NCBI GenBank assembly: GCA_021732785.1
Contig: JAKFUG010000032.1
Coordinates: 1-64,000 of the forward strand
Direction: 5' to 3'
DNA: 64,000 nucleotides
DNA from: Planctomycetaceae bacterium
GTDB taxonomy: Bacteria; Planctomycetota; Planctomycetia; Planctomycetales; Planctomycetaceae
Below the pieces are notes generated by a model. It had not been told where the DNA came from and ran no database searches. It saw nothing but the letters and a program-made list of their open reading frames with translations. The position numbers were made by a program, and so were the translations under genes. Every line of letters begins with the position of its first letter. Within the stretch, counting starts at the first letter, position 1. Below are positions 5,328 through 56,237 of the stretch, in pieces.

Positions 5328-6146
5328 TCAAAGCGAATTTCGCGTGAACCGGTCGGGCGAGCGGATGAACTGCTGCTGACGATCGCGGTTGGTGAAGAAC
5401 CACAACCGCCCTTTCCAGCGAACACCCACGCGCGGGTCACCCGGCTCGGCGGTGACGGGGCAAACCCCGTTGGCCATCGGCCAGTACCGCTCGGAGTTTT
5501 CCAAAAAGCGTTGTTTGTGAGCCGCCGTCTGGAAGCTCAACGTCTGCCCGCGGTATTCGAGACGGAACTCGTCCAGACCCCGACGCAGTTTGTTGTCGTC
5601 CAGCAGGCTGACCAGACAGAAGCCGCCGAACGCCACCGGGCTCGAATTCTGCGGGAACAACGCCGACACCGGGGCGAACGGATCGCGCTCGGCGGGCGGC
5701 TGGGTCATGCCGCTGAGATGTTCCAACTCGACGGAAAACTCGTTGGCGTGCTGGAAACCGGTCCACGTTTTGCGACGATTGCCCGCGGCATCAAAAAAGA
5801 TCGTGGTGGGATACGCGGTGATTCCCAGCGACGACACCACCGACGGGTATTGGTCGGCGTCGACCGCGACGGCGACGATTTTCGATTCCACCAGATGTTT
5901 GATCCGTTCGTCGGTGAACGTCAGTTGACGCATCTGTCGGCACGGGCCGCACCACGTCGCGGTGATGGCGACCAGCAGCGGTCGCTGTTTTTCCTTGGCC
6001 AGTTCCTGGGCGGCATGAAAATCCGCCAGCCAGTTTGTGGGGGGCTCCTCGGCCAATCCCCGTTGAGGCAGCACCATGACTGCCACGACCATCGAGCATC
6101 CCGTCACGACGCAGCGCGCCGTCCGGGACAACAATCCATTCGACAT
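5328..6146 (-). CDS. Secreted thioredoxin-fold protein with YHS-like C-terminal region
   Basis: The ATG at 6146, preceded by GGAGG at good spacing, gives a 272-residue protein with a signal peptide (about residues 1-31, ending near GLAEEPP). The thioredoxin fold follows, with active site WCGPC at 65-69 in a DsbD-gamma/thioredoxin_7 context. The C-terminal 100 residues contain segments resembling YHS domains (LEYRGQTLSFQTAAHKQRFLE and VRWKGRLWFFTNRDRQQQF), which in other proteins are linked to metal handling. It probably works in the periplasm on protein thiols. It is transcribed convergently with the cysteine desulfurase gene, 33 bases away. The open frame extends to 6281, but that extension lacks a ribosome-binding site and would bury the signal peptide. 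Confidence 0.85.
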   Translation of the reverse strand: MSNGLLSRTARCVVTGCSMVVAVMVLPQRGLAEEPPTNWLADFHAAQELAKEKQRPLLVAITATWCGPCRQMRQLTFTDERIKHLVESKIVAVAVDADQYPSVVSSLGITAYPTTIFFDAAGNRRKTWTGFQHANEFSVELEHLSGMTQPPAERDPFAPVSALFPQNSSPVAFGGFCLVSLLDDNKLRRGLDEFRLEYRGQTLSFQTAAHKQRFLENSERYWPMANGVCPVTAEPGDPRVGVRWKGRLWFFTNRDRQQQFIRSPDRFTRNSL

Positions 6147-6494
6147 CGGAACCCTCCGTAGCAGATGAGATTCACAGCAGGGGGTCGTGAATTGGGCCCA
6201 CCCGCCTCTGTGAACCTGGCAAACCTTCCCCGACTTTTCCGTGCGGGTCGACTTTGCCACTTCGTCCAAAACCGCGACCACCGTACCGAGGGCGTCCCAC
6301 GATTTCCACCTGAAATGAGGATGAGCCTTGGTTTAGGATGGCTGGGTGACTTGCGGAATTGAAGATGGGTTGATCCGGATGTTTGGGGTGTGGCTGGGCG
6401 GCGATCAGCCTGCTTCAAAATCATCCACGCTTTCGACGCCGCTCGCTTGAAGTGGTCGCGGACAATCCTCACGTGATCCGTTATCTTGCCGGGC
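6147..6494. other. Divergent intergenic region, no gene seen
   Basis: This space separates the minus-strand thioredoxin gene from plus-strand hrpB and should hold both promoters. No RNA gene, strong palindrome or believable small gene was seen. Confidence 0.5.
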
Positions 6495-9014
6495 ATGCCG
6501 ATACCGCTGCCCATCGACGAGCTTCTTCCCTCCTTGACGGAATGTCTGCGGTCGTCCCCCACGCTGATCGTGCAGGCACCGCCGGGGGCGGGAAAAACGA
6601 CGCGGATCCCCCCTGCCCTGCTCGATCGCAGTCTGGTCGGCGGCGGACAAATTCTCGTTTTGCAACCACGCCGTGTCGCCGCGCGGACGACTGCACGGCG
6701 GATGGCTGAGGAACGCGGGACGCCGCTCGGGGCGGAAATCGGCTATCAGATTCGCTTCGAACGCCGGGTGTCGGCCCAAACGCGCATTGTGGTGATGACC
6801 GAAGGCGTCCTCTTAAGACGTCTGCTGGACGATCCGTTTCTGGAAAACGTCGACGCCGTGATTCTGGACGAATTCCACGAACGGCATCTCGACAGCGATC
6901 TCGCCTTGGCAATGGTCCGCCGCGTGCAGCAGACCGTGCGGCCGGATTTGAAGCTGATCGCGATGTCCGCCACCCTGCAGACGGAGACGCTGCAAGCTTA
7001 CCTCGGCGGCTGTCCGATCCTGACGGGAAATGTGCGGCCGTTCCCCGTCGAAGTGGAATATCTCCCGGCGAGTGATGACCGCCCCTTGGCCGAGCAGGCG
7101 GCGTCCGGCGTGCAGCGGGTGTTGTCACGAACGGCGGGGGATGTGCTGGTTTTCGTGCCGGGCTATGGCGAAATCCAGCGGACGATGGCGTTGCTGCAAG
7201 CCGATGCGTCGCTGGCCGATTCCGTAATCCTGCCGCTGTATGGGGAACTTGCCGCCGACCAGCAGGATCTCGTGTTTGCCCCGGCAGCCGGGCGGAAAAT
7301 CATCGTTGCCACGAATGTCGCGGAAACCTCGATCACGATTCCCGGCATCACCGCCGTCGTCGACACTGGCTGGGCCCGGACGATGCAATTTGACGCGGCT
7401 CACGGTTTGAATCGACTGGAACTGCGACCGATTTCGCGGGCCTCCGCCGAGCAACGAGCCGGTCGCGCGGGCCGGACGGGGCCGGGCCGATGTCTGCGGT
7501 TGTGGACCGAAGCGTCGCACCGGGCGCGACCGGTCGCCGATGTTCCCGAGATTCACCGTACGGATTTATCCGGCGCGGTGCTGTCGCTGCACGTCTGGGG
7601 GGAACGTGATCTCGATCTGTTTCCGTGGTTTGACCGACCTTCCGCCGGCTCGCTGAGCCATGCAGACTTCTTATTAAGGGCGCTGGATGCGCTGGATGAC
7701 GATGGTGTAACCAAGCTCGGTCGGGAGATGTCACGCTGGCCGACCGCGCCGCGGCTGGCGCGGTTGATTCTCGCTGCCAAAGAGTTCGGTTGTCTGACCG
7801 CGGGTTGTCTGGCGGCGGCGCTGTTGGCCGAGCGCGATCCATTCGCCACCGGTCGGCGAACCACCGCACGGCATGTTTCGGCCTCCGATCTTGCCGATCG
7901 CGTTTCCGCGCTGCTGGAATTCCAGCGAACCGGTCGGCTCGAAACCGACATGGGAACGCTGCATCGCGGCGGTGCCCAAACGGTCCTGCAAGCTGCCGAA
8001 CAATTCGAAAGGATCGCGGGACCTCCGAATCATCAGAAGCAACACGCGGAATCGGACGCCCTCGGCCGCGCGGTGTTGGCCGCGTTTCCCGATCGGCTCG
8101 CCCGGCGGCGGGAGCCGCGCAGTCGCCGCGGCGTGATGGTCGGGAATCGCGGTGTCCGCCTGGCCGATTCGTCCGCGGTGATGGAGAGCGAATTGTTTGT
8201 CTGCCTCGACGTCGATTCCTCCGGCGACGAAGCCCTCGTTCGCAGTGCGTCGGCTGTCGATCCTGCCTGGTTAACCGGACGGCACAAATCGACACAAATC
8301 GACTTGGAATTTGACGCGGTCGCCGAACGCATTCAAGCCCGCCATCGCACTCTGTGGTTTGATCTCGTTTTGCAAGAACATCCGGCGGCACTGGACCGCG
8401 ATGCGGATGTCGCCGAAGCGCTCGCCGCGGCAGCGGTCACCCATTGGCCGCGCGTCTTCCCGCCGGAGGATGCGACCGTGCCACAATTGATTGCGCGCGT
8501 GCAATGTCTGCGCGAATGGTTGCCCGAAGCGGGATTTCCCGCATGGACCGACACAGAACTGCATGCGCTGCTGCCGCAATTGGCGGCGGGTTGTCGCTCG
8601 TTCCGCGAACTCCGCGCGGCTCCGTGGGCGATGTTTCTGCGGCAATCGCTCACTGCCGCACAACAATCGTTGCTGGATCGTGAAGCGCCCGAACGGCTCA
8701 CCGTGCCGAGCGGTAGTCGCATTGTGTTGGATTACGCGCCGGGTCGGGCACCGATTCTCGCGGTCCGCATTCAGGAAGTTTTCGGTTGGAAAGCGACGCC
8801 GCGGATTGCGGGCGGGCGTGTGCCTGTGTTGTTGCACCTGCTCGCACCGAATCATCGTCCGCAGCAGATCACCGACGATCTCGCCTCCTTCTGGACGACG
8901 GCGTACCAACAGGTTCGCGGCGAACTCCGCCGCCGTTATCCCAAACATGCCTGGCCGGAAGATCCCTGGACCGCACCGGCGCAGAGCAAACCGCGGCGCA
9001 AGTCTTCCAGTTGA
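6495..9014 (+). CDS. hrpB: ATP-dependent RNA helicase HrpB
   Basis: This 839-residue DEAH-box helicase matches HrpB in length and domain order. Walker A (APPGAGKTT) is at about 28-36, the DEAH box appears as DEFHERHLDSDLAL (variant DEFH, normal for HrpB), then MSATLQ, and motif VI as EQRAGRAGRTGPG. The helicase-associated and HrpB-specific C-terminal domains fill the last 400 residues, ending in a basic tail. The ATG at 6495 is preferred over an in-frame TTG nine bases upstream. The biological role of HrpB is poorly defined; an RNA or ribonucleoprotein substrate is presumed. The gene stands alone. Confidence 0.93.
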   Translation: MPIPLPIDELLPSLTECLRSSPTLIVQAPPGAGKTTRIPPALLDRSLVGGGQILVLQPRRVAARTTARRMAEERGTPLGAEIGYQIRFERRVSAQTRIVVMTEGVLLRRLLDDPFLENVDAVILDEFHERHLDSDLALAMVRRVQQTVRPDLKLIAMSATLQTETLQAYLGGCPILTGNVRPFPVEVEYLPASDDRPLAEQAASGVQRVLSRTAGDVLVFVPGYGEIQRTMALLQADASLADSVILPLYGELAADQQDLVFAPAAGRKIIVATNVAETSITIPGITAVVDTGWARTMQFDAAHGLNRLELRPISRASAEQRAGRAGRTGPGRCLRLWTEASHRARPVADVPEIHRTDLSGAVLSLHVWGERDLDLFPWFDRPSAGSLSHADFLLRALDALDDDGVTKLGREMSRWPTAPRLARLILAAKEFGCLTAGCLAAALLAERDPFATGRRTTARHVSASDLADRVSALLEFQRTGRLETDMGTLHRGGAQTVLQAAEQFERIAGPPNHQKQHAESDALGRAVLAAFPDRLARRREPRSRRGVMVGNRGVRLADSSAVMESELFVCLDVDSSGDEALVRSASAVDPAWLTGRHKSTQIDLEFDAVAERIQARHRTLWFDLVLQEHPAALDRDADVAEALAAAAVTHWPRVFPPEDATVPQLIARVQCLREWLPEAGFPAWTDTELHALLPQLAAGCRSFRELRAAPWAMFLRQSLTAAQQSLLDREAPERLTVPSGSRIVLDYAPGRAPILAVRIQEVFGWKATPRIAGGRVPVLLHLLAPNHRPQQITDDLASFWTTAYQQVRGELRRRYPKHAWPEDPWTAPAQSKPRRKSSS

Positions 9015-53236: not shown

Positions 53237-53599
53237 ATGGCCAATCAGGTGGTGTGGTTCGATGTCCCCTGTGTCGATTTGGACCGGGCGATTGCGTTTT
53301 ATTCCGCGGTGTTGGGACAAAAGGTAGAGAAGGAGACTTTCCCGGGGATGTCGCTCGGCGTGTTGCCGCATGAGGGAAACGATGTCGGCGGATGCCTGGT
53401 GGTTTCGCCGGATGTGAAACCGTCGGCTCACGGAGCCCTGCTCTATTTCAACTGTCAGGGTCGTCTCGATGCCGCTGTCGATGCGGTCGGGAAGAATGGC
53501 GGCACCGTGCTGGAGCCGTCGCATCCGATTGGTCCGCATGGCTTCCGCGCGGTGGTGCTCGACAGCGAAGGGAACCGGATCGCCCTGCATTCCCGTTAA
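53237..53599 (+). CDS. VOC-family (glyoxalase/bleomycin resistance-like) protein
   Basis: This 120-residue protein has two beta-alpha-beta-beta-beta modules of the vicinal oxygen chelate fold: VVWFDVPCVDLDRAIAFYSAVLG at the start and GTVLEPSHPIGPHGFRAVVLDSEGNRIALHS at the end. The typical second-half DPxGN motif appears as DSEGN. Members bind a metal and act on small molecules; many are uncharacterised. It precedes the c-di-AMP riboswitch but should end independently, as the riboswitch starts 100 bases later. Confidence 0.9.
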   Translation: MANQVVWFDVPCVDLDRAIAFYSAVLGQKVEKETFPGMSLGVLPHEGNDVGGCLVVSPDVKPSAHGALLYFNCQGRLDAAVDAVGKNGGTVLEPSHPIGPHGFRAVVLDSEGNRIALHSR

Positions 53600-53946
53600 C
53601 ACCCGTGCGCTCGTTTCTGGTCCACCGGCGAGCTTGGTCTGTCGTCCCTGTTCGCGTACAATCTTTCTTCAGGATCGCAGTTGTCATTTGCCGTCATCAA
53701 GACGGTCGCTGAGTCTGCGGGAAGACCGCAGAACGGGGGAACCACGTCAATTTGGGGCGAATCGGAAGTCATTTCGTAGGGGAGCCCACTCGACCCCGAG
53801 CCCGTCAGCTAACCCCGTAAGCGTTCGAGGCGGAGACGATGAACAACCGAGAGAGTTGAAATCATTCGTCCCGATTGTGGCGGTTTCCAGGCGGAGACCC
53901 ACCTCGTCCGGCGCGCAAATGGTGCGGTTCCGAAAGTTTTCTCGTC
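53600..53946 (+). other. Leader region of KimA-like gene
   Basis: This 347-base space contains the promoter region (about 53600-53700), the riboswitch aptamer (53703-53827) and an expression platform of about 120 bases before the chosen start. No gene was seen in it. Confidence 0.7.
53703..53827 (+). promoter_or_regulatory. Cyclic-di-AMP riboswitch (ydaO-yuaA type)
   Basis: The sequence matches the ydaO-class aptamer in order and wording. P1 pairs 53703-53710 with 53820-53827; a perfect 7-base hairpin (53714-53720 with 53726-53732) follows; then the conserved blocks CGGGGGAACCA, TTGGGGCGAATC, and near the end CCGAGCCCGTCAGCTAACC with CCGTAAGCG. It lies upstream of an APC-type transporter, a frequent partner of this riboswitch, which normally turns expression off when cyclic-di-AMP is high. 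The identification rests on recognised motifs; no covariance search was run. Confidence 0.9.
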
Positions 53947-55725
53947 ATGCTTTCCACGGGCCATCGTCCCCGTCAGCTTCACTGGTATCACGCCGGCCCC
54001 ATGCTCTTCGGCGATTGGGGAACCAGCCGACTGTACGTACTCGGCATCTGCTTTTATCACACGCGGCATGCGTCGATCTGGTTCATGCTGGCGATGTCGC
54101 TGCTGCTCCTCGGAGTTGGCTGGGCGTACTCCGTCGTGTGTCGACTCTACCCCGATGGCGGCGGCGTGTACTCGTCGGCAAAACACCGTTCGCAATTGCT
54201 CGCGGTGGTCGGTGCCCTGCTGCTCTGTGCCGACTACGTGGTAACCGCTTCCCTCTCGGCGCTCGATGCCTTTCATTATCTCGATCTCCCACGGCCCGAA
54301 TTATGGGCGGCGGGCAGCATTGCGATGATTGGCATTGTGAATATCTTTGGACCGACGAAGTCGGGATTTCTGGCGATGGTCGCCGCGATCCTGACGATCC
54401 TCTTCAGTGCATTGGTCGGCGCTGCGGCGCTCCCTTCGATGGCACACGCGGAGATTACGGTTCCCACTGGCAATATTGGGAATTGGTGGTCGCAATTTAC
54501 CGCCATCATTCTGGCCATCTCCGGCGTGGAAGCTGTGGCGAATATGACCGGGATCATGGTGGAACCGGTCGAAAAAACGGCCCGCAAATCGATCTGGCCG
54601 GTGTTGATCGAAATCGTCATCCTCAATCTCGTGCTGACCGCCGCCATGTCGGCCGTGCCCCTGGATGTGCTCGGCGATGGCAACCCGGACCATGCCTATT
54701 CTGCGCACCGGGACGACATGCTGCGGCTGCTCGCGGTGCACTACGTGGGACCAACGTTCGGGGCAATCGCCGCCGTCGTCTTCGCCATGCTGCTATTATC
54801 CGCCGTCAACACCGCCGTGACCGATCTGGTAAGCATCCAATACATGATGGCACGCGACCGCGAATTGCCAGCGTTTGTCTCGAAGTTGAACTCGTACGGC
54901 ATGCCGGCCTGGGCGCTCGTGGTCGGGACGGTGGTCCCCCTCATCACCGTTTTGGTCACGCCCGATGTGGGACATCTCGCCGACTTGTATGCCATCGGCG
55001 TCGTGGGAGCCGTCACGGTGAACTTGGGGACGTGCGCGGTCAGCTTCGATTTGCCCATCAAAAAATGGGAACGGTCTATCATGTCCGTTCTTGCCGTGTT
55101 GATGTTGGGGATTTGGATCACAATTGCCTGGGAGAAGCCGCATGCACTCATGTTTGCGGGGACAATCGTGTTGCTGGGGCTGGGCACGAGGTGGGTCACC
55201 CAACAACGCAAGATGGTGGGGAAAGTCTGGAAAGGGGCCGAACAATTCTGGGCCGTGGTCACCGAACCGACAGCCCCGGTCCCGGCGGAAGTGGTGGAAG
55301 GAAGTTATCAGGCGCAATCCCGGTTCCTCACGGCGACCCGCGGGAATCCAAAACTGTTGAAATTCGCTCTGGAAAACGCCAAAGAGCACAAAGCCGAACT
55401 CTTGATTCTCTTCGTGCGGCAAGTGGCCGTCCCGGTGTTGGGGATGGCATCACAGATCGGTTCCGAATCGGATCCGGAAGCTCAAAAAGCGTTCGCCAAC
55501 GTGAAAGAGTTGGCACAGGCCGAAGGGGTGCCGGTCCGGTTGCTCTATACGGTGACGTCCGACATCCCCGATGCGATTCTGGACTTTTCCGCGACGTTCG
55601 GCGTCGAGCGGGTGATCCTCGGGGCGACGCAGCGTGGTTCGCTGTGGCGCACGATGAAAGGGGACATCATTCATGGTGTCGCACAGCACTTGCCGGAACG
55701 AACGACATTGCTCATCTGCGCATGA
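53947..55725 (+). CDS. KimA-like APC-superfamily transporter with C-terminal USP-like domain
   Basis: From ATG 53947 this is a 592-residue protein; an in-frame TTG at 53875 is an alternative. Residues about 15-430 carry some 11-12 membrane helices of the APC superfamily (GPMLFGDWGTSRLYVLG, ISGVEAVANMTGIMVEP, LSAVNTAVTDLVSIQYMMARDRELPAF). Residues about 450-592 form a cytoplasmic UspA-like domain (ELLILFVRQVAVPVLG ... VERVILGATQRGSLWRTMKGD). In B. subtilis, KimA (YdaO) is a potassium importer under the same riboswitch. Potassium uptake is thus the leading hypothesis; amino acid transport is the alternative. Confidence 0.85.
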   Translation: MLSTGHRPRQLHWYHAGPMLFGDWGTSRLYVLGICFYHTRHASIWFMLAMSLLLLGVGWAYSVVCRLYPDGGGVYSSAKHRSQLLAVVGALLLCADYVVTASLSALDAFHYLDLPRPELWAAGSIAMIGIVNIFGPTKSGFLAMVAAILTILFSALVGAAALPSMAHAEITVPTGNIGNWWSQFTAIILAISGVEAVANMTGIMVEPVEKTARKSIWPVLIEIVILNLVLTAAMSAVPLDVLGDGNPDHAYSAHRDDMLRLLAVHYVGPTFGAIAAVVFAMLLLSAVNTAVTDLVSIQYMMARDRELPAFVSKLNSYGMPAWALVVGTVVPLITVLVTPDVGHLADLYAIGVVGAVTVNLGTCAVSFDLPIKKWERSIMSVLAVLMLGIWITIAWEKPHALMFAGTIVLLGLGTRWVTQQRKMVGKVWKGAEQFWAVVTEPTAPVPAEVVEGSYQAQSRFLTATRGNPKLLKFALENAKEHKAELLILFVRQVAVPVLGMASQIGSESDPEAQKAFANVKELAQAEGVPVRLLYTVTSDIPDAILDFSATFGVERVILGATQRGSLWRTMKGDIIHGVAQHLPERTTLLICA

Positions 55726-55735
55726 TCAAGGAGAA

Positions 55736-55801
55736 ATCCTCGCTTGCGCTTTGCCGATCCCACAGTCACCACTGTGAGATCGGCAAAGCGCAAGCGAGGA
55801 T
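55736..55801. repeat. Perfect 24-bp inverted repeat between convergent genes
   Basis: Arms 55736-55759 and 55778-55801 pair exactly, and an inner pair (55761-55766 with 55771-55776) extends the stem. It lies 10 bases after the KimA-like stop and 10 before the TPR gene stop, so it should terminate both transcripts. The motif AAGCGCAAGCG is shared with the element at 739-800. Confidence 0.9.
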
Positions 55802-55811
55802 CTCAGAAATA

Positions 55812-56237
55812 TCAACCTTTTTTCGGCGGGCGTTTCGTGCGCGACGCCGGTTTATCTTCGATCTGGAAGATCGGAATAAACACGACCTGCAGCTTCGTCC
55901 CCGGCGGCAAGTCAGGAGGCGTGGCATTCGCCGCCGCTTGTTCGGCCAGATCGTTCAGGCCCTGTTCGCGATAGCACTGGCTCAGTCCCCACCAGGCCCG
56001 TTGATTGAACGGCTGCGGGAACAGTTCCGCGGCCCGGTTGAGAGCGGGAATCGCTTCTTCAAACCGGTGTTCCGCTTTCATCGCTTCGCCGAAGAGGAGT
56101 TTTGCAATCCCCTCGAACGGCCCGGCGTCATCCACACGAGACAACTCAGTTAACGCGTATTTTGGCAGGCCGAGTTCCAGAAACCCCTCGGCAGCAGCCA
56201 ACCGACGCACAATCCTGGGAGCGTCATTGGGAATCAT
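55812..56237 (-). CDS. Small TPR-repeat protein
   Basis: This 141-residue protein contains about two TPR-like helical hairpins (residues 20-105): KYALTELSRV, LLFGEAMKAEHRFEEAIPALNRAAELFP, and WWGLSQCYREQGLNDLAEQAAA with the canonical W-G-Y-A spacing. The C-terminus is basic and Pro/Lys-rich, after a possible membrane-contacting stretch VVFIPIFQI. TPRs mediate protein binding; the partner is unknown. It is monocistronic. Confidence 0.8.
   Translation of the reverse strand: MIPNDAPRIVRRLAAAEGFLELGLPKYALTELSRVDDAGPFEGIAKLLFGEAMKAEHRFEEAIPALNRAAELFPQPFNQRAWWGLSQCYREQGLNDLAEQAAANATPPDLPPGTKLQVVFIPIFQIEDKPASRTKRPPKKG

Follow-up and report, generated by a model that had tools for sequence, protein, structure and literature searches.

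A ydaO-class riboswitch precedes a probable KimA/KUP-like potassium importer in a planctomycete that lacks the DacZ diadenylate cyclase

The DNA analysed here is a 64-kb stretch of a planctomycete genome, which we call the window, and all positions refer to it unless another locus or contig is named. The locus of interest consists of a structured RNA and, 108 nt past its end on the same strand, the start of a transporter gene, which places the RNA in the 5' leader of this gene. The features are as follows.

53697..53838, + strand: c-di-AMP (ydaO/yuaA, RF00379) riboswitch aptamer, found by cmscan; 142 nt, of which 6 are substituted relative to L004, the closest relative
53829-53835, + strand: Shine-Dalgarno-like GGCGGAG, read from the sequence, directly 3' of P1
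53839-53859, + strand: short upstream ORF (ATG...TGA, MNNRES, 6 codons), read from the sequence, directly 3' of the aptamer
53882..53899, + strand: 7-bp hairpin GGTTTCC-AGGC-GGAGACC without a U tract, from fold and alignment; identical in L004
53947..55725, + strand: KimA/KUP-like transporter with a C-terminal USP domain, 592 aa (P0001), from profile, Foldseek and VIA-align
54010..54039, + strand: TM1 motif LFGDWGTSRLY, residues 20-30, a KUP-type VFGD/IYGD signature; D23 = KimA D36, Y30 = KimA Y43
55351..55695, + strand: universal stress protein (Usp) domain, residues 469-583, Pfam PF00582, E 5.1e-8
55733..55804, no strand assigned: 34-nt inverted repeat directly past the transporter stop, from a repeat search; built on CCTCGCTTGCGCTT

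A cmscan of the window against all Rfam families gave a single match above cut-off, the RF00379 riboswitch at 53697-53838 (+), which scored 85.9 bits (E 1.3e-18; gathering score 38) and covered the full model, positions 1-134. The initial annotation had proposed a c-di-AMP (ydaO) riboswitch from ordered motifs in the leader, and the covariance search bears this out; the hairpin tCTGCGG-gaaga-CCGCAGa and the segments CGGGGGAACCA, GGGGCGAATC, CCCGTCAGCTAACC and CCGTAAGCG all fall at RF00379 model positions. The extent it had given, 53703-55725, agrees with the end of the open reading frame, but its left border lies about 6 nt inside the match.

We compared the locus with that of its nearest relative, a Planctomycetaceae MAG (L004), whose transporter is 93% identical to the window transporter and also has an RF00379 riboswitch upstream. 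The aptamers are 95.8% identical, as compared with 69.8% for the 200 nt upstream of the aptamer, 84.3% for the leader 3' of it and 42.7% for four-fold degenerate sites in the transporter codons. As 6 of 142 aptamer positions differ while 57% of the four-fold sites do, the aptamer is under strong constraint. It is an intact, genuine member of RF00379 under purifying selection, and a chance match is ruled out by the E-value, by this selection and by recurrence of the riboswitch. An Arg/Pro-rich open frame of 894 aa (53469-56153, +) overlaps both riboswitch and transporter in a different frame, and is surely a G+C artefact.

No intrinsic terminator was found in the window leader downstream of the aptamer, and a terminator-type expression platform was thus dropped from consideration. 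For the same reason, the output is most likely translational control, perhaps exerted via the upstream ORF whose Shine-Dalgarno sequence directly follows P1. In L004, an upstream ORF (MIDQEG) has the same position and length, and in three Omnitrophota loci (L018, L026 and L041) a 23-codon ORF at the equivalent place stops just before the transporter ATG. These longer ORFs (approximately L018:1740-1822, L026:3916-4000 and L041:3916-4000) have their own Shine-Dalgarno in the aptamer 3' tail. Judging by the arrangement of these elements, it is possible that GGCGGAG and the 6-codon ORF (53829-53859) are part of the expression platform, and translational coupling through the ORF would be a reasonable hypothesis. 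A fold that pairs the aptamer 3' strand with the start-codon region can be drawn for the window, but it is not conserved in L004 and we do not claim it. At the other end of the gene, the inverted repeat, which consists of a REP-like palindrome, probably marks where the transcript ends; its 14-mer core has 55 copies in the genome (allowing up to one mismatch) versus 4 for the reversed control.

The start of the transporter is best set at ATG 53947, since homologues begin at the equivalent residue, several of them with a clear Shine-Dalgarno. A single-sequence search of the protein against PDB and NCBIfam gave no match, and a profile was needed to place it: with a profile of 27 homologues, B. 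subtilis KimA was the best PDB match (64 bits, E 1.1e-16). KimA also came first when the AlphaFold2 model (mean pLDDT 78.8) was searched with Foldseek (E 1.7e-16), and was the top match in VIA-align, where 506 residues (model 17-592 to KimA 30-602) aligned with Z 43.7 and with an rmsd of 13.4 that is high since domain orientations differ. According to this alignment of the model, the LeuT-type 12-TM domain and the cytosolic alpha/beta domain are present as in KimA. The KimA-like transporter of the initial annotation is therefore upheld by all three comparisons.

The residues that matter in KimA are largely retained. In the profile alignment, KimA D36, Y43, D117, Y118 and T121 correspond to D23, Y30, D96, Y97 and T100 here, and S125, E233, N237 and Y377 to S104, E195, N199 and Y348, with the Y118/N237 pair thus kept; T230 is replaced by S192. 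In KimA, the K+ ion is coordinated by D36, T121 and Y377, and E233 has been proposed as the proton site (PMC6994465); roles of the site residues are described in PMC6994465 and PMC10284832. The window counterparts of the K+/proton site (D23, Y30, T100, Y348 and E195) are invariant or nearly so in the 27 homologues. Conservation of the KimA K+/H+ site, with T230 as Ser, supports the link to K+ that had been suggested for this gene.

The protein differs from KimA in its LFGD motif, whose D23, G25, T26, S27 and Y30 are invariant in the 27 homologues; the VFGD/IYGD motif of KUP proteins has no counterpart in KimA (PMC6994465). In this respect it is similar to E. coli Kup, which has the VFGD/IYGD-GTS motif in TM1 and whose D23 and E229 correspond to D23 and E195 here. 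However, Pfam K_trans (PF02705), which marks the classical KUP branch by sequence, matched none of the 27 homologues, and the window structure is closer to KimA than to Kup. Because there is no PF02705 match, we name the protein KimA/KUP-like rather than a classical KUP.

One may ask whether the gene carries an amino acid or another solute of the APC superfamily instead of K+, with the riboswitch correctly assigned. The APC superfamily includes many amino-acid carriers, and the K+ substrate of our preferred reading is one that we infer; Pfam AA_permease_2 or AA_permease hits occur among the homologues (the window protein alone matches only Usp, and nothing over its membrane domain), and ApcT and BasC align with Z 36-38 over the membrane domain. 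We nevertheless consider such a substrate quite unlikely, as KimA leads all three comparisons, there is little or no variation in the LFGD motif and the Asp/Tyr/Glu K+/H+ residues, and the regulon of RF00379 in the phylum is K+ transport (see below). On these residues and comparisons, the 592-aa protein is probably a K+ importer of the KimA/KUP-like kind.

The C-terminal region, which had been described as resembling a universal stress protein, is indeed one by sequence: Pfam Usp scores 34 bits (cut-off 24), and all 27 homologues match. In the AlphaFold2 model it has the topology b1-a1-b2-a2-b3-a3-b4-a4-b5 and sits at the place of the cytosolic domain of KimA, a five-stranded parallel alpha/beta fold that binds c-di-AMP (PMC6994465, PMC10284832). 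In contrast to the KimA domain, it is recognisable as Usp by sequence. The further suggestion that this domain binds a nucleotide did not fare so well. The USP ATP motif, defined as G-2x-G-9x-G(S/T) (PMC4686210), is broken and reads G559-AT-Q562-x9-G572-D573. S. aureus KdpD, a c-di-AMP receptor, likewise has a USP domain in a K+-homeostasis protein, but its c-di-AMP motif SXS-X20-FTAXY (PMC4686210) was not seen in the window domain. Finally, Arg337, which contacts c-di-AMP in KimA, is Ala309 here, and Arg is found at this position in 0 of 27 homologues; our judgement of the pocket is confined to this residue, for hhalign of the full protein against KimA aligned the membrane part well and the C-terminal domain poorly. 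As Arg337 raises the affinity of KimA for c-di-AMP and is not essential for inhibition (PMC10284832), binding by the USP tail would still be allowed. The residues thus do not support direct nucleotide control through the USP domain, which may nonetheless gate transport. Dual control would not be new in kind, since RNA-level and protein-level control have already been described for B. subtilis KimA (PMC10284832).

The riboswitch is not confined to this locus. The nearest relatives are genomes of Planctomycetaceae and Schlesneria, consistent with the planctomycete host that had been proposed, and of the 392 Planctomycetota genomes sampled, 46 have RF00379; a DAC domain is present in 43 of these 46. 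The gene downstream was read for 32 riboswitches (29 sampled loci, two of the window's genome and one of its congener, G216). It was a TrkH (16) or an APC/KimA-type gene (11, including that of the window) in 27 of the 32. The other five precede three Band_7/SPFH-like genes (one of which, L073, was assigned by similarity of the N-terminus and without a Pfam match), a gene that looks like a trehalose-phosphate synthase (truncated, and read by eye) and a HAMP/PAS gene. The planctomycete loci thus share with ours the riboswitch class and a downstream K+ transporter gene; they differ in that most transporters are AA_permease_2-type KimA-like or TrkH proteins, the USP-tailed kind being a minority (the window and L074 in the sample). 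RF00379 is therefore a phylum-wide K+ regulon in planctomycetes, beyond one case, and the proposal that c-di-AMP governs ion balance in these bacteria as well appears to be not only upheld but widened.

Among homologues of the window protein, the riboswitch was found upstream in Planctomycetota (L004, L010, L011, L027 and L136) and Omnitrophota (L018, L026, L028 and L041). As a point against our preferred reading, most transporter homologues have no riboswitch upstream, even at a permissive threshold, and no degenerate copy was detected before the riboswitch-free ones at E<=1. In the congener G216, the riboswitch precedes a TrkH-type K+ transporter (G216:C19, L129:1230-2768 (-)), and the KimA/USP gene is absent. 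The second riboswitch of the window's genome (G000:C3, 84686-84858, - strand; 55.7 bits) lies before the gene of a 755-aa SPFH/Band_7 protein (L126:1719-3987 (-)), with a Na+/Ca2+ exchanger gene next on the same strand. SPFH genes also lie behind riboswitches in two other planctomycetes, L046 and probably L073. We found no paper that links SPFH proteins to the RF00379 riboswitch, nor any report of this riboswitch in planctomycetes in the open-access literature searched, and with this scope we do not claim priority.

The unusual part of the finding is the missing DacZ. Presence of a diadenylate cyclase had been named as a check on the riboswitch, and its outcome is divided: one divergent DAC-domain protein is there, but DacZ, the cyclase usual in this bacterial family, is missing. 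A PF02457 search of the genome found one protein, designated DACNG-DACNH-DAC, at 35.7 bits (32-36 bits overall, with a cut-off of 27); its DGA motif is intact and its RHR-type motif reads RYN. It adjoins a TrwC relaxase with helicase domains (L127:3802-5271 (-) and 5750-7960 (-), G000:C1 about 320 kb), and this neighbour suggests that it lies on a mobile element. DacZ (DacZ_P-DAC), carried by the congener and other family members, is the usual cyclase of Planctomycetaceae; a DacZ profile found no match in the window's genome at E<=10, while the congener gives one at 9e-139. In the congener, DacZ stands beside FabZ/HAD (L164, G216:C27) and carries a fused PTS EIIA-2 domain. At the syntenic FabZ-HAD site of the window's genome (L163, G000:C20:1-9500), 67-75% identical and inside contig C20, DacZ is absent. 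An assembly gap is an unlikely cause, given that this neighbourhood is assembled without DacZ; the genome is 99.63% complete. L004 (G399) is also without a DAC found, but is 64% complete and thus says little. A gene for a PgpH-type HD phosphodiesterase is present, and c-di-AMP turnover is thus likely. Still, with DacZ gone and the sole DAC-domain protein divergent, c-di-AMP production is not assured, which weighs against our preferred reading.

This absence gives room to the idea that the aptamer, though of genuine ydaO class, responds to a different adenine nucleotide (e.g. ATP, AMP or a mixed cyclic dinucleotide) or to the product of DACNG-DACNH-DAC, its ligand having changed because the housekeeping cyclase was lost. 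The idea gains from the near-complete genome with its intact syntenic neighbourhood, from the RYN motif of the only DAC protein and from an early report, cited in PMC5575661, that presented ydaO as an ATP sensor (Watson and Fedor 2012). Nevertheless, the entire c-di-AMP consensus is kept in the strongly conserved aptamer, the phosphodiesterase gene is retained, the DGA motif of the DAC domain is intact, and c-di-AMP was later named the primary ydaO ligand (PMC5575661). We thus regard a changed ligand as unlikely. That the riboswitch is a decaying remnant, non-functional after loss of the cyclase, is highly improbable: the missing DacZ and the lower score of the second genome copy are in its favour, but so few changes in the aptamer relative to the four-fold sites are not decay, unless the loss was very recent. 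A more far-reaching scenario may be drawn for a riboswitch under selection in a lineage without its housekeeping cyclase. Should the signal come from the divergent DACNG-DACNH-DAC on a conjugative element (or be another ligand), uptake of K+ by the host would be governed by a nucleotide system that is mobile and may be related to conflict, a scenario we find rather doubtful.

The explanation we prefer, with a probability of roughly 0.8, is that the transporter mRNA would fold, in its 5' leader, into a ydaO-class c-di-AMP aptamer and that high c-di-AMP, and so high cellular K+, would repress production of a KimA/KUP-type K+/H+ symporter. It builds on computed elements (aptamer integrity, purifying selection, a KimA-like gene with K+/H+ residues, and pairing of riboswitch and K+ genes across sampled Planctomycetota), to which it adds a ligand, an OFF direction, a K+ substrate and an output level that we infer. 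The closest known system is B. subtilis kimA (ydaO), where an RF00379 aptamer precedes the gene of a KUP-type K+/H+ symporter whose C-terminus is a cytosolic alpha/beta domain. There, c-di-AMP rises with K+, binds the ydaO RNA and shuts kimA off, and also inhibits KimA (PMC5575661, PMC10284832); by analogy, the direction of control would presumably be OFF here as well. The window locus differs in that no terminator-type platform was found and the host is without a standard cyclase.

In summary, the locus holds a genuine, selected riboswitch of a known class before a probable K+ importer, within a planctomycete K+ regulon. Most of what is known of K+ control by c-di-AMP comes from Firmicutes and Actinobacteria. 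With RF00379 standing before K+ transporter genes throughout the sampled Planctomycetota, and also in Omnitrophota, and with a DAC domain protein in almost all sampled genomes of the former phylum (361 of 392), regulation of ion balance by c-di-AMP appears to reach Planctomycetota. It is directly testable there, and the window's genome, in which the riboswitch is conserved and the standard cyclase gone, offers a clean natural experiment.
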